DNA of 64,000 nt from Bdellovibrionales bacterium (GTDB taxonomy: Bacteria > Bdellovibrionota > Bdellovibrionia > Bdellovibrionales > Bdellovibrionaceae): NCBI GenBank assembly GCA_018266295.1, contig JAFEAQ010000008.1, forward strand, positions 1-64,000, given 5' to 3'. Below, one piece after another: positions 26,556 through 31,118 of the stretch. Under the pieces are notes generated by a model, which saw only the letters and a list, made by a program, of their open reading frames with translations, made no database searches and had not been told where the DNA came from. Every line of letters begins with the position of its first letter. Position 1 is the stretch's first letter. Position numbers and translations under genes: made by a program.

Positions 26556-27491
26556 TTAAATAGAATAAGGCACGATGAGTGCCTTATTTTTTATCGTCAG
26601 CTCGCCACCATACCCACTGAGGAACTTAAAGGCCTCAAGGCCCATCTGTGCCGCCGCAAGAGTGTTTGTAAAACACAGGCTTCCACGAACGATCTGTTGC
26701 TGAAAATGGGCAGCGTCTTTTGCCAAATTTCTGAAATTTGCATTTTGCTTTTGTAGCTCTACGGGATCCGTAAAGAGAGGGCCGATCACAGCATCTGAAA
26801 TACCCACGGCACCAAACAGCACGGCGGTTTCGAGCTGCAAAGCGGTCTCGCCAACGATAGCTTGGATGGTATACATGGGCTGATCCACGGCGCACACAAT
26901 GAGCTGAAGCGAGAAGCCTTTTAACATTCCAGTGAGTTGATCTGTGGATGACAGAAGTTCGTGGCGGGTGTGAAGTTCAAGGTCCGGTTGAATTTCAAGA
27001 AGTCGCTCTTTGAGCGCTTGAACCTTCGGCTTTCCCAAATCTTTTTTTGTAAAGTGCAGCTGGCGATTCAAATCCGGCTCATCGACAAGTCCCCCATCCA
27101 CAAGCACCAGCGAACGAATGCCGGCGCGAACAAGGTGTTCTGCAATCAGGCCGCCGGTTCCACCGCAGCCGATAATTCCCACGGGCTTCGATTGCATCTT
27201 TGCAAAGACCTCTTCCGCATTCTGTGTTTGGTAAGAAAGCCAGTGGAGGGTTCTGTGATGAGAGTCTTCTTTGAAATCCTGAACTTTAAAAATCAGTCTT
27301 TCCTTTAAAAGGAACTCCTGAAATTTCTGTGAAGGCAAAGTAGCAAAAGACTTTCCTGCAGCAACGATTTCCAAGCTCTGAACGACAGAATCCGATAGTT
27401 GCTGGAATGTCCATAGACGTGTGCCCTCGCGAAGTTCTGCGGGTGCATTTGCTGATAAATGAACTCGGAGTGTTTCAACAGGTCTAAACAT
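26556..27491 (-). CDS. E1/ThiF-family adenylating enzyme of a RiPP-like operon
   Basis: 311 residues. The C-terminal two thirds is the ThiF/E1 fold: VGIIGCGGTGG (103-114) for ATP, the acidic strand VLVDGG, NRQ at 142-144 and GKPKV at 153-157. The N-terminal hundred residues look like a small peptide-clamp domain as in MccB of microcin C synthesis, but this is a weak impression. MccB-type enzymes adenylate the C-terminal residue of a precursor peptide; other E1 homologues serve cyclodehydratases or sulfur carriers. No CxxC zinc site is seen. It is the last gene of the operon, overlapping the transporter by eight bases. Activation of the upstream 50-residue peptide is the leading guess. Confidence 0.75.
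   Translation of the reverse strand: MFRPVETLRVHLSANAPAELREGTRLWTFQQLSDSVVQSLEIVAAGKSFATLPSQKFQEFLLKERLIFKVQDFKEDSHHRTLHWLSYQTQNAEEVFAKMQSKPVGIIGCGGTGGLIAEHLVRAGIRSLVLVDGGLVDEPDLNRQLHFTKKDLGKPKVQALKERLLEIQPDLELHTRHELLSSTDQLTGMLKGFSLQLIVCAVDQPMYTIQAIVGETALQLETAVLFGAVGISDAVIGPLFTDPVELQKQNANFRNLAKDAAHFQQQIVRGSLCFTNTLAAAQMGLEAFKFLSGYGGELTIKNKALIVPYSI
26564..26588 (+). terminator. Intrinsic terminator of the helicase gene, nested in the next gene
   Basis: A perfect 10-bp stem (AATAAGGCAC with GTGCCTTATT) with a five-base loop and a T run on the plus strand. The stem also encodes the last residues of the convergent E1-like gene, whose stop is at 26556. Confidence 0.9.
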
Positions 27492-28716
27492 GAGAGATCT
27501 TTCCTGCTTTTTTGAAATAAACCCCGAGCAACACTAGGCAAAGCAAAGGTGGAATGCTCAAAAGAGACATCGCCTTCACGCCGAAGCCGTGATCCATAAA
27601 GTAGCCAAGTGCCATATAAGAGCAGGCGATACTAAGAGAGTTCACCAATGACTGAATGGAGATCAAACTGGCGCGAATATTCGACGGGACTTGTTGGTGC
27701 AAATAAGTATCCGTGAAAACAAACACCAAATTGGGAAAGCTCGCCAAGAAAATAAAAAGTCCGACATGAAGAGTAAGATTATAAGGCAGGGCATAGCCCA
27801 GCACGAGCAATGCAAAGAGCGACACACCACCAAGGATAATGTTCTTAAGCTCAAATCGCTTAAAGAACGATGTAAAAGTGTACCAGAACGAGTTCGCCAA
27901 GCTCGCTAGAGACATGATCAGGCCAATAGTTGCGACGTCCAATCCCTGAGCCTGGAAGTAAGATTGTGAAAAGATATAAAGGGGCGTCGCGCCGGCTTCG
28001 AAAAAACAAAGTGCGGCGATAAGTAACAGGAGGTATTTGCCGGTTGTCGAACTGAGATACTCCTTGATGCTGGCCGTGACTGAAGGGCGCTCTTCGTGAG
28101 AGTGCGATTCATGAGGTGTCTCTTGGAAGAAAAGAATGCAAAACCCGGCCAGGAAATAAGCGACGATGGCGGCGCCATAAGCATACGACCAGCCTTGCTG
28201 CTTTTCTAGGACACCGCCCAGCCAAATTGCAAAAGCCAGGGTCAAATTGCCGATGTTTCGAGACTTTGCCGACACCTGAAGATAGGTTGATTTGGCCTTT
28301 GAACCTTGAGTTTTAAGGTAATCATAGAGAAGGGCTGTGTTTGCACCGCTCGAGAAAGCCATGCCCAGGCCTTTCAATGCGAAAAGACCTGCAACAACGT
28401 AGAAATTTTTTGAAACAAGGACGCCGATAAAGCCGACAATCACCGTGGCTATGCCAACAAGAACACTCCATTTGCGGCGGTAGCGATCAGCGAACATTCC
28501 AGAGGGGAGCTCAAATAAAAGAATACTGCCAAAAAGGATGCTTTGGAAAAGACCGATTTGGGAATGATCAAAGCCTCTGCTTAGGAAAAAAAGGATAAAG
28601 ATTCCACGCGTGAAATCCATGCTCGAGAACGCTGCAAAGAGGTAATAGAGCCAGATATTTTTCGTGAAGGTGTCAGTCGTTGTCTTGGTCAAACTTTGTA
28701 CTCCGATGGTCTGCAT
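27484..28716 (-). CDS. MFS transporter of the RiPP-like operon
   Basis: 410 residues with about twelve hydrophobic segments and the loop motif FADRYRRKWS between helices 2 and 3, typical of drug/metabolite:proton antiporters. Within this operon it probably exports the finished peptide or protects the producer, as MFS pumps do in microcin clusters. A GAGAGG ribosome site precedes the ATG, thirteen bases after the previous stop. Substrate cannot be read from sequence. Confidence 0.82.
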   Translation of the reverse strand: MQTIGVQSLTKTTTDTFTKNIWLYYLFAAFSSMDFTRGIFILFFLSRGFDHSQIGLFQSILFGSILLFELPSGMFADRYRRKWSVLVGIATVIVGFIGVLVSKNFYVVAGLFALKGLGMAFSSGANTALLYDYLKTQGSKAKSTYLQVSAKSRNIGNLTLAFAIWLGGVLEKQQGWSYAYGAAIVAYFLAGFCILFFQETPHESHSHEERPSVTASIKEYLSSTTGKYLLLLIAALCFFEAGATPLYIFSQSYFQAQGLDVATIGLIMSLASLANSFWYTFTSFFKRFELKNIILGGVSLFALLVLGYALPYNLTLHVGLFIFLASFPNLVFVFTDTYLHQQVPSNIRASLISIQSLVNSLSIACSYMALGYFMDHGFGVKAMSLLSIPPLLCLVLLGVYFKKAGKISHV

Positions 28717-28728
28717 ACTAGCCTCTCA

Positions 28729-29916
28729 TTATTTTAGGAATTTGAGCAGGGGGTTTTCGCTCAGGGTCCTGTTTAAGCTCAAGGATGGAATTTTAAAAAG
28801 GGGAATAAACGATGCCGCATCTTCAAGAAGGTGGTCGCATAGATAAATGGCTCCGGCGTCATCGATTTCGGCTCTTTCCCAGGAATCATAAACACGTGCT
28901 AAAGACTTTAAGGTGGCTTTGTTGTCATAAATGCCGGGCTCTTTAATTAGAGAAAGATATCTAAAGTAGGGATGTGCTCCTAGGCCTCTACGAATAATAA
29001 ACTTCAAGTCATACTCTTGATAAGGTTGATAATAGTCATCAACGGCGAGTTCAACCTTGAAGCCTTTTGCAGTCAGTTTTTCCTGAACGGCCGTGCAGAT
29101 CTCTTTATTGGGATAGAAGGGATCGAAAGCAATTTTGATTGAGCAGGGCTCTATTTTTCCATTGCTCTCTGAAGGAAGCGTCCAGGAATCGTATTTGCCG
29201 AAATGGATGTGTTCAAAGGAGACTGAAGAGATAAGATTCTGAAGAGATTTTCTACTATCGAGAGAAGTTAAATCATAAAATCTGCGAGACATTTCAAATC
29301 CTGCAAAGAGCCCGGTTTCATGCCTTTGAACCGGCAAGCCTTGAAAGTCCAAATGGAGTGGCAAAGCTGTATCTGAAGTAATATCGATCTCTCCCAGAAG
29401 AAAGGCCTTCATATTGTCCTCGGGGCTTTGAATGTGACGAAGAAGAATTTCTTGCGGGCCTGGCACACTTCTTTGTTTGGAAAATAGAAACTGATCCTCA
29501 TTCTGTGAATCAAGTCGATAAGCTCCACTGGAGCCGCGAAGTTGGGATTGGGCTGGCGTCAGGAAGGGCATCTTTAGTATCTCAGAAAAGAAACTATTCT
29601 TCTTTTTTAAGAAAAAGCGAATTTTATCGTCTTTGCATTCCATCATTTTGAGGTCTTTAAAGAGGAGTTGCCTCAGCAAAGGTTTCTCAGCAAAGAGATG
29701 CTTAAAACCCAAAAGAAAATCGCTGCCAGTGACGGGGCTACCATCATCCCATTGCATCGTGCTTGGTAAACGGCATTCGTAGGTGAGTGAGTTCACTTCT
29801 GTGATCTCACTCTCTGCCAGGGCTGAATGACTCAAACTAAAAAATTGAATGCCGCTGTAGTCTGTCGACTGCGACAACGATTTTTTTAATGGAAGAGAGT
29901 CAATCGCGAGTTTCAT
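28729..29916 (-). CDS. Peptide-binding-protein homologue without signal peptide
   Basis: 395 residues that match the family 5 solute-binding fold of oligopeptide/nickel ABC transporters. YECRLPSTMQWDDGSPVTGSD gives the characteristic W.DGxPVt.sDf signature, followed by QSQLRGSSGAYRL and an IDITSD segment. It is shorter than usual (about 500-550) and has no signal peptide or lipobox, so it should stay in the cytoplasm. No ABC permease or ATPase is nearby. A role as a peptide-holding or substrate-presenting partner of the modifying enzymes is my inference. The gene starts two bases after the cupin stop. Confidence 0.72.
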   Translation of the reverse strand: MKLAIDSLPLKKSLSQSTDYSGIQFFSLSHSALAESEITEVNSLTYECRLPSTMQWDDGSPVTGSDFLLGFKHLFAEKPLLRQLLFKDLKMMECKDDKIRFFLKKKNSFFSEILKMPFLTPAQSQLRGSSGAYRLDSQNEDQFLFSKQRSVPGPQEILLRHIQSPEDNMKAFLLGEIDITSDTALPLHLDFQGLPVQRHETGLFAGFEMSRRFYDLTSLDSRKSLQNLISSVSFEHIHFGKYDSWTLPSESNGKIEPCSIKIAFDPFYPNKEICTAVQEKLTAKGFKVELAVDDYYQPYQEYDLKFIIRRGLGAHPYFRYLSLIKEPGIYDNKATLKSLARVYDSWERAEIDDAGAIYLCDHLLEDAASFIPLFKIPSLSLNRTLSENPLLKFLK

Positions 29917-29918
29917 GA

Positions 29919-30869
29919 CTAGTTGGCCTTTGGCAGGCGGTTCAGGATATGATCATGCTTTGTGTGCATTTGTTGAATGTACTTTAAGAACGCCTTTTCG
30001 TTATCGACGTAACGGCAACTCTCCAGGGAGTCTTCACAATAGGCGAATTCACTATTGAGAATTTCTTGGCTTAGTTTTTCTAGTTTCACCAGCGGTGTCA
30101 GAATACGTCCACGAATCTGTTGTTCGAAGGGAAGATAGTTATTAGGTGATACAAAATTGCAAGAAAGGGCAATCGACTCATCATGATTGATCACATGATG
30201 CCACCAACCAGAAGGCATGAACAAAGTATCGCCTTCTTCAATTTTGGCTTCATAGACGGAAACGCCCTTTGCGATGAGATTCTCGACGATAGTGTCATTA
30301 AAGACATCAAGGCCATTGGTAATTCCAGGAGTGTCTCCGGGAATAAGACGAACTGTCTTAGAACCACGAATACAAGTCAGCCACGTCGATACGAAAAATG
30401 AGTCCGTATGAAGCGGGCTTTGCGAATACGCGTGACCGATGAAAAGAGACATCCAGTCGTACTGCATAATGGGCTGAATTTTATCAATCAGGTTGTTTTG
30501 AAAGAACTCCGGAATAACGATGTCTTGCGTGAGGCTCGAGAAGCTCTTGGCAAAGTGCCAGCCCGCCGCATACATGGGCTCACCTGTTGGCGGAGCGGTT
30601 CTCAAGGACTTAACATAGTCGACATACTCTTTCATATTTATGCGAGTTTTGTCTTTGTACTTCTGGTGAGCATTTGATTGGTAGTAACTCACAGGAAGCT
30701 CGGCAGAGCCGTAAGTTTCACTGAAGTAATCAAGGCTCCATTTTGAAAATGCCGGCCACTCTTTGCAGAGGCCTTTTAAGAGGGCAGGTCTATTTTCAGC
30801 AATGTATTTGCTGCGAAAGAGATTTTCTGTTTGAGATTTATTGAGGGAATCAACAGAGATGAGGTTCAT
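29919..30869 (-). CDS. JmjC/cupin-8 family Fe(II)/2-oxoglutarate oxygenase
   Basis: 316 residues resembling factor-inhibiting-HIF and related protein hydroxylases. The metal ligands are visible as HTD (154-156) and the second histidine in PSGWWHHV (about 224), with IRGSKTVRLIPG on the cofactor strand. It is the first enzyme gene after the precursor-like peptide, so side-chain hydroxylation of that peptide is the obvious hypothesis. GGAG lies five bases before the ATG, just beyond an attenuator hairpin. Similar proteins also modify ribosomal proteins, so a role outside the operon is possible. Confidence 0.82.
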   Translation of the reverse strand: MNLISVDSLNKSQTENLFRSKYIAENRPALLKGLCKEWPAFSKWSLDYFSETYGSAELPVSYYQSNAHQKYKDKTRINMKEYVDYVKSLRTAPPTGEPMYAAGWHFAKSFSSLTQDIVIPEFFQNNLIDKIQPIMQYDWMSLFIGHAYSQSPLHTDSFFVSTWLTCIRGSKTVRLIPGDTPGITNGLDVFNDTIVENLIAKGVSVYEAKIEEGDTLFMPSGWWHHVINHDESIALSCNFVSPNNYLPFEQQIRGRILTPLVKLEKLSQEILNSEFAYCEDSLESCRYVDNEKAFLKYIQQMHTKHDHILNRLPKAN

Positions 30870-30878
30870 AACGACTCC

Positions 30879-30910
30879 AAAAAAGAGGCCCCTGGGATTT
30901 CCAGAGGCCT
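30879..30910 (-). terminator. Attenuator/terminator between precursor peptide and enzymes
   Basis: AGGCCTCTGG pairs with CCAGGGGCCT (one wobble, five-base loop) and six T follow on the minus strand. It lies between the peptide stop (30917) and the cupin start (30869). Partial read-through would give much more peptide mRNA than enzyme mRNA. Confidence 0.85.
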
Positions 30911-30916
30911 TTGGGA

Positions 30917-31069
30917 TTAGCAGCGACGGCCGCCCATTTCCATACCTACGAAATCAGACGTGTTTGTGAGGATGATTGAGAAATCATCTGGCTCATTCGT
31001 GACGTTGAAGATTTCAGTAGAAAACTCGATTTCTTCTTGGATCGGTTGTTGTTCGTTAGTGATTTCCAT
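30917..31069 (-). CDS. RiPP precursor-like peptide, 50 residues
   Basis: An ATG at 31069 with a strong TAGGAGGT site four bases away. The peptide has an acidic, leader-like part (many Glu, Asp, Asn, Gln; about residues 1-40) and a short distinct end, VGMEMGGRRC, with a single terminal cysteine. This leader/core contrast, the strong ribosome site, the following attenuator and the modification genes behind it all point to a ribosomally made, modified peptide. The MEMGGRRC end is the likely core; the E1-like enzyme may act on its carboxyl end. I know no named peptide with this end, so the product is unassigned. Confidence 0.72.
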   Translation of the reverse strand: MEITNEQQPIQEEIEFSTEIFNVTNEPDDFSIILTNTSDFVGMEMGGRRC

Positions 31070-31101
31070 AGAACCTCCTAAGGTTTGTGCCAGCCCTCTA
31101 T

Positions 31102-31118
31102 CGCAAGAGAGGTGCCAC
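31102..31118 (-). promoter_or_regulatory. Sigma-54-type promoter of the RiPP-like operon
   Basis: On the minus strand TGGCAC, then CTCTC, then TTGC. The invariant GG and GC are exactly ten bases apart, as sigma-54 requires. The predicted start lies about 25 bases before the peptide ATG. The core TGGCACCTC is shared with the promoter at 42287-42304. Confidence 0.7.

Follow-up and report, generated by a model that had tools for sequence, protein, structure and literature searches.

A rare five-gene cassette of Bdellovibrionota and Pseudomonas, probably a new family of RiPPs centred on an MccB-type adenylase

A cassette of five genes was analysed in a 64,000-nucleotide stretch of a Bdellovibrionales bacterium (GenBank assembly GCA_018266295.1, contig JAFEAQ010000008.1, positions 1 to 64,000 of the forward strand), referred to here as the window. 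The genes encode a 50-residue peptide, a JmjC-type 2-oxoglutarate oxygenase, a family 5 peptide-binding protein (substrate-binding protein, SBP), an MFS transporter and an E1-like enzyme. Probably, the cassette represents a new family of ribosomally synthesised and post-translationally modified peptides (RiPPs) built around an MccB-type adenylase. An encoded precursor conserved beside candidate modifying enzymes, a mark of RiPPs, was found at six loci in two phyla, and all six peptides end in Arg-Cys. The cassette occupies positions 26556-31118 as five tightly spaced frames. Its features are listed below in the order of transcription, each with its basis.

31103..31117, minus strand: candidate sigma-54-type promoter core TGGCAC-N5-TTGC (exact match)
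31074..31079, minus strand: ribosome-binding site AGGAGG of the peptide gene (read from the sequence)
30917..31069, minus strand: precursor peptide gene, 50 residues, Gly-Gly-Arg-Arg-Cys end (homologues in 5 other genomes, shuffle tests, codon changes)
30886..30910, minus strand: hairpin and T-run, a probable partial terminator, in the gap between the peptide and JmjC genes (terminator scan; fold z = -3.2)
29919..30869, minus strand: JmjC/Cupin_8 2-oxoglutarate oxygenase, 316 residues (Pfam; active-site residues)
28729..29916, minus strand: family 5 peptide-binding protein without signal peptide, 395 residues (Pfam; alignment)
27484..28716, minus strand: MFS transporter, probable exporter, 410 residues (Pfam MFS_1; relatives within the same operons)
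26556..27491, minus strand: MccB-type ThiF/E1 adenylyltransferase, 311 residues (Pfam; best PDB profile match; Foldseek)

The window peptide matches no Pfam family. Two distant Bdellovibrionota encode a homologous peptide just upstream of their JmjC gene, as do three Pseudomonas at the equivalent place. The two other Bdellovibrionota peptides have 41 or 47 residues and an RRC end; the three from Pseudomonas have 46 residues each and an SRC end. The six align over about 30 residues, beginning at the F of FNVTNE/FSATNE and running to the final Cys, without gaps bar one residue in one member. When compared with four of the five others, the window peptide scored better than 2000 of 2000 shuffles, and with the fifth, better than 1992 of 2000. 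An earlier reading made from the window's letters alone (the sequence-only reading) had singled out a GGRRC end; of this, the Arg-Cys pair proved invariant and the two glycines did not. It had also suggested a search of other Bdellovibrionota with alignment of the peptides, which yielded the two RRC-ending members, and had set beforehand what would refute it: a peptide not conserved where the enzymes are, or enzymes that are widespread with no peptide beside them. This test did not refute the reading. Wherever a close relative of the JmjC gene was found with the SBP gene, a homologous Arg-Cys-ending peptide lay directly upstream.

The codon changes were then compared. Pairwise ratios of nonsynonymous to synonymous change (dN/dS) among the Pseudomonas peptides were 0.20-0.35, and in one pair eight of the ten codon differences in the last 30 codons were synonymous. 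By these ratios, the Pseudomonas peptides show purifying selection. In all the DNA examined, an Arg-Cys end occurs in 10 of 2,621 small frames, several of which are these peptides. Judged by such comparisons, the small frame is more than chance, because six genomes from two phyla conserve it beside these enzymes and Arg-Cys ends are otherwise rare.

The two distant Bdellovibrionota genomes (G186 and G079) were obtained by an SBP search of the phylum. A scan with the JmjC alignment, taking one genome per species over 84,980 species, returned the same two together with two Pseudomonas in which JmjC, SBP, E1 and MFS genes stand together; the third Pseudomonas locus came from a genus-level search. 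The five-gene cassette is rare. The JmjC gene was present in 1 of 141 genomes of the window's order (the window genome alone) and the SBP gene in 2 of 349 Pseudomonas genomes. Searches of the family or order of the two other Bdellovibrionota gave no further members, and a plasmid search using the Pseudomonas SBP gave no match. JmjC loci of cyanobacteria, Bacteroidota and others, which have no relatives of the other cassette genes, were set aside. Those of cyanobacteria (L016, L020, L028) carry tandem pairs of distantly related JmjC genes with no E1, SBP or MFS relatives nearby. In Lysinibacillus (L012, 7661-11800), a JmjC gene lies beside arginase-family and radical SAM genes, possibly another RiPP cluster.

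The gene order, the single tight minus-strand operon and the overlaps were as the sequence-only reading had described them for all five frames. The four large frames match Cupin_8/JmjC, SBP_bac_5, MFS_1 and ThiF above the Pfam cut-offs; the MFS and E1 genes overlap by 8 nt, and 2 nt lie between the JmjC and SBP genes. Two features went beyond that reading, namely the hairpin between the peptide and JmjC genes and the clean position of the cassette between two genes that adjoin in relatives. The operon lies between DEAD-box helicase and ankyrin genes; in eight related Bdellovibrio genomes of the family these converge and adjoin each other directly, with about 50-110 nt between them. Since the flanking genes are adjacent without the cassette in these relatives, the comparison indicates that the five genes were gained or lost together, the peptide gene with them. 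In G186 the operon is split over contig ends: the first contig stops within the MFS gene, and on the second the E1 gene directly follows the end of an MFS gene, in agreement with the order in the window.

The best PDB profile match of the E1 enzyme was MccB (E 8e-41), which was also closest by single sequence, and the top Foldseek matches of its fold were MccB. The profile and fold matches uphold the analogy with MccB drawn in the sequence-only reading. Among its solved relatives, PaaA is the next RiPP enzyme after MccB. Every member keeps R143, K156 and D203, which sit in motifs matching those of the ATP/Mg residues reported for EnfB (PMC12250964). The window, G186 and Pseudomonas enzymes have in common a deletion of about 10 residues, which removes the CxxC that is retained in MccB and in a Thermoactinomyces E1; because of this shared deletion, they look like one derived group. 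As in MccB, a region of about 90 residues precedes the E1 domain; model confidence there is low, and the only match is a weak one to a winged helix (E 0.025).

The resemblance to MccB raises the question of a microcin C-like peptide-nucleotide system, in which the E1 would link a nucleotide to the peptide, the MFS protein would export it as MccC does, and the product would be a Trojan horse antibiotic. Like mccABCDEF, the cassette combines an MccB-type E1, an adjoining MFS gene and a precursor without a protease gene. An ABC-ATPase/GNAT-like protein beside the E1 in Pseudomonas and G079 would fit as MccE-like immunity, GNAT immunity being known for MccE (PMC12250964). In G079 the ABC-ATPase protein follows the end of the E1 and has 31% identity to the Pseudomonas protein beside the E1, the second half of which weakly resembles GNAT acetyltransferases, below the Pfam cut-off. 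However, the precursors of the cassette, at 41-50 residues, carry Cys at the end in six of six cases instead of the C-terminal Asn required by MccB chemistry, so succinimide and N-P bond formation cannot occur. MccD- and MccF-type genes are not among the cassette genes, which add a JmjC oxygenase and a probably cytoplasmic SBP, and the E1 lacks the CxxC of MccB. We consider a microcin C-like system improbable. The ABC-ATPase/GNAT protein of some relatives may possibly serve self-immunity. In Pseudomonas sp. W4I3 (L011, 10397-12799) it is fused with the E1 in one 800-residue frame, and in the two other Pseudomonas the two proteins are encoded by overlapping frames; the natural fusion hints that they work together.

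In the JmjC protein, the iron ligands of the HxD...H type (H154, D156, H224) are invariant in five members, as is K171. Its nearest solved relatives are JMJD6 and JMJD5, protein hydroxylases whose targets are Lys and Arg. The nearest solved relatives of the SBP are peptide binders such as PrgZ/OppA. Its start agrees with those of the homologues (AIDSLP/AVDAVP), and in the alignment no signal peptide or N-terminal extension is visible in any member, as the sequence-only reading had it for a family 5 binding protein without signal. The SBP thus probably works in the cytoplasm. Its predicted structure had a mean pLDDT of 52 and was not used.

Upstream of the peptide gene, the AGGAGG ribosome site was present as described earlier. 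A promoter had also been claimed; a promoter scan found no sigma-70 promoter at this place, and what stands there is the sigma-54-like core. It begins 48 nt ahead of the peptide ATG; by shuffles, 0.11 such cores are expected per 64 kb. In the two other Bdellovibrionota, cores with 9 of 10 and 8 of 10 matches have comparable positions; the Pseudomonas loci have none. A second exact sigma-54 core (TGGCACCTCCGTTGC) lies at window positions 42303-42289 (minus strand), 38 nt before the start of a TolQ/ExbB-like gene (42250-41576), the first gene of an ExbB-ExbD-ExbD-TPR operon.

A stable hairpin separates the peptide stop from the JmjC start at all six loci (z -3.2 to -5.6); despite the same position, the hairpin sequences are unrelated between the phyla. 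Such hairpins are a usual route to a higher level of precursor than of enzyme in RiPP and bacteriocin operons. A terminator-like hairpin right behind a frame whose last codons are Arg-Cys could also mean a leader peptide of transcription attenuation that senses Arg or Cys, the operon then having another substrate. Several observations argue against such a leader: the conserved motif is distant from the peptide end, the alignment is nearly gapless, the frame has no run of a single codon, RiPP-type enzymes adjoin it, and in Pseudomonas the changes in the last 30 codons are mostly synonymous. Attenuation is very improbable, and it was rejected on the pattern of codon changes.

Among RiPPs, the GRC thiolactones (GrcA/GrcB) resemble the cassette in pairing a ThiF-like enzyme with a precursor that ends in Cys (PMC12250964), and a Glu-Cys or similar thiolactone might be formed here as well. 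The peptides, however, have no acidic residue at a fixed distance; in place of the Glu at -4 they have G (window), S (L003), A (L004) or V (Pseudomonas), and JmjC, SBP and MFS genes replace the grc tailoring genes. We regard such a ring as slightly less probable still than attenuation. In IndF and enterofaecin RiPPs a ThiF-like enzyme with a leader-binding front region adenylates the C-terminal carboxylate, much as is proposed for the E1 here; the cassette peptides do not have the NWYFI or WWIVI end, and the partner genes differ. The biphenomycin-type clusters (pbs/bpm) have a JmjC/cupin-like hydroxylase and an MFS gene in a RiPP cluster (PMC12257519); unlike them, the cassette has an E1 and is without MNIO, arginase and B12 radical SAM enzymes. 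An anti-phage defence module (CBASS/Bil) was rejected as having next to no likelihood, for although PADLOC E1-E2 models matched the E1, they spanned only the shared ThiF domain and no other cassette protein, the best solved match was MccB, and the cassette includes no E2, JAB or effector gene. The cassette probably works most like the ThiF-type RiPPs, within which it would form a new family, and is a member of none of the microcin C, GRC, IndF and enterofaecin groups.

A cluster of Thermoactinomyces mirandus (L015) offers a further comparison. It has E1, signal-less SBP and MFS genes together and a JmjC gene nearby. Between the MFS and E1 genes of the cluster (L015, 1264-8780) is an unannotated 18-codon frame, MKIKRIKPTSSRPMAVRS, with a ribosome site, an Arg-Ser end and then a hairpin. 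It differs from the cassette in having DUF5825 and a B12 radical SAM enzyme in addition, the CxxC is retained in its E1, and its JmjC protein is only distantly related (27%). Besides Thermoactinomyces, no relatives of this E1 at E 1e-40 were found among 398 Bacillota. The cluster looks like another uncharacterised RiPP cluster, and should the 18-codon frame prove real, there may be a wider module made up of E1, SBP and MFS.

With the cassette read as a RiPP family, the following course may be proposed. The hairpin would likely make the peptide mRNA more abundant than the enzyme mRNA. The FNVTNE-type motif together with a hydrophobic strand would likely be the leader, bound by the N-terminal part of the E1. 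The JmjC enzyme would hydroxylate the core, most likely at the invariant penultimate Arg, which is a moderate guess; JmjC-like PbsQ hydroxylates an Arg-derived ornithine in another RiPP (PMC12257519). The E1 would likely adenylate the carboxylate of the C-terminal Cys. Hydroxylation and activation at the terminal Cys had been put forward by the sequence-only reading, and they are plausible because the Arg-Cys end is invariant. With an MccB substrate ending in Gly instead of Asn, the reaction goes no further than the adenylate, which can be captured by thiols (PMC13255007). Here, capture by a nucleophile could leave the peptide with a cyclic, thioester, amide or nucleotidyl end. Because no positions other than Arg(-1) and Cys(0) are constant at the core end, one of these two most likely supplies the capturing group or is the residue that becomes oxidised. 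The SBP might, again as a moderate guess, bind the modified peptide in the cytoplasm and pass it to the MFS exporter, or shield the cell, and the MFS protein would export the shortened product. For the structure of the product and the role of the SBP, we infer from these parts. A bolder form of the proposal, which we think rather unlikely, is a new RiPP class in which the activated Cys would react with its own thiol, or with a hydroxyl placed by JmjC on the neighbouring Arg, to give a beta-thiolactone or a small cyclodepsipeptide, with the SBP as carrier or immunity protein.

Several points weigh against the RiPP assignment. No product is known for the cassette, and it contains no protease gene, so the leader would have to be removed by a protease of the host or by way of another locus. 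The N-terminal part of the E1 is predicted too poorly to show a RiPP recognition element. The rarity of the cassette makes the sample small. The two other Bdellovibrionota peptides have weak direct similarity to those of Pseudomonas; what links the phyla is thus the window peptide, together with the position and the enzymes that they have in common.

A literature search for JmjC, ThiF and a RiPP precursor together found, within its limited coverage, no paper describing the cassette. For Bdellovibrio-like bacteria, relatives of the host, it gave no described RiPP cluster of the JmjC/SBP/MFS/E1 sort, and in the literature searched no cytoplasmic oligopeptide-binding protein was seen to recur as a biosynthetic partner. 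In that literature the cassette is uncharacterised and has no existing family name. With ThiF-like RiPP enzymes, of which few have been solved, the product varies widely with the nucleophile that captures the adenylate. Since no more than an invariant Arg-Cys end is left of the conserved core in these peptides, the chemistry has a narrow range and can easily be tested with a peptide of 41-50 residues and two enzymes. Were the beta-thiolactone or small cyclodepsipeptide true, it would be an unprecedented reactive peptide end.

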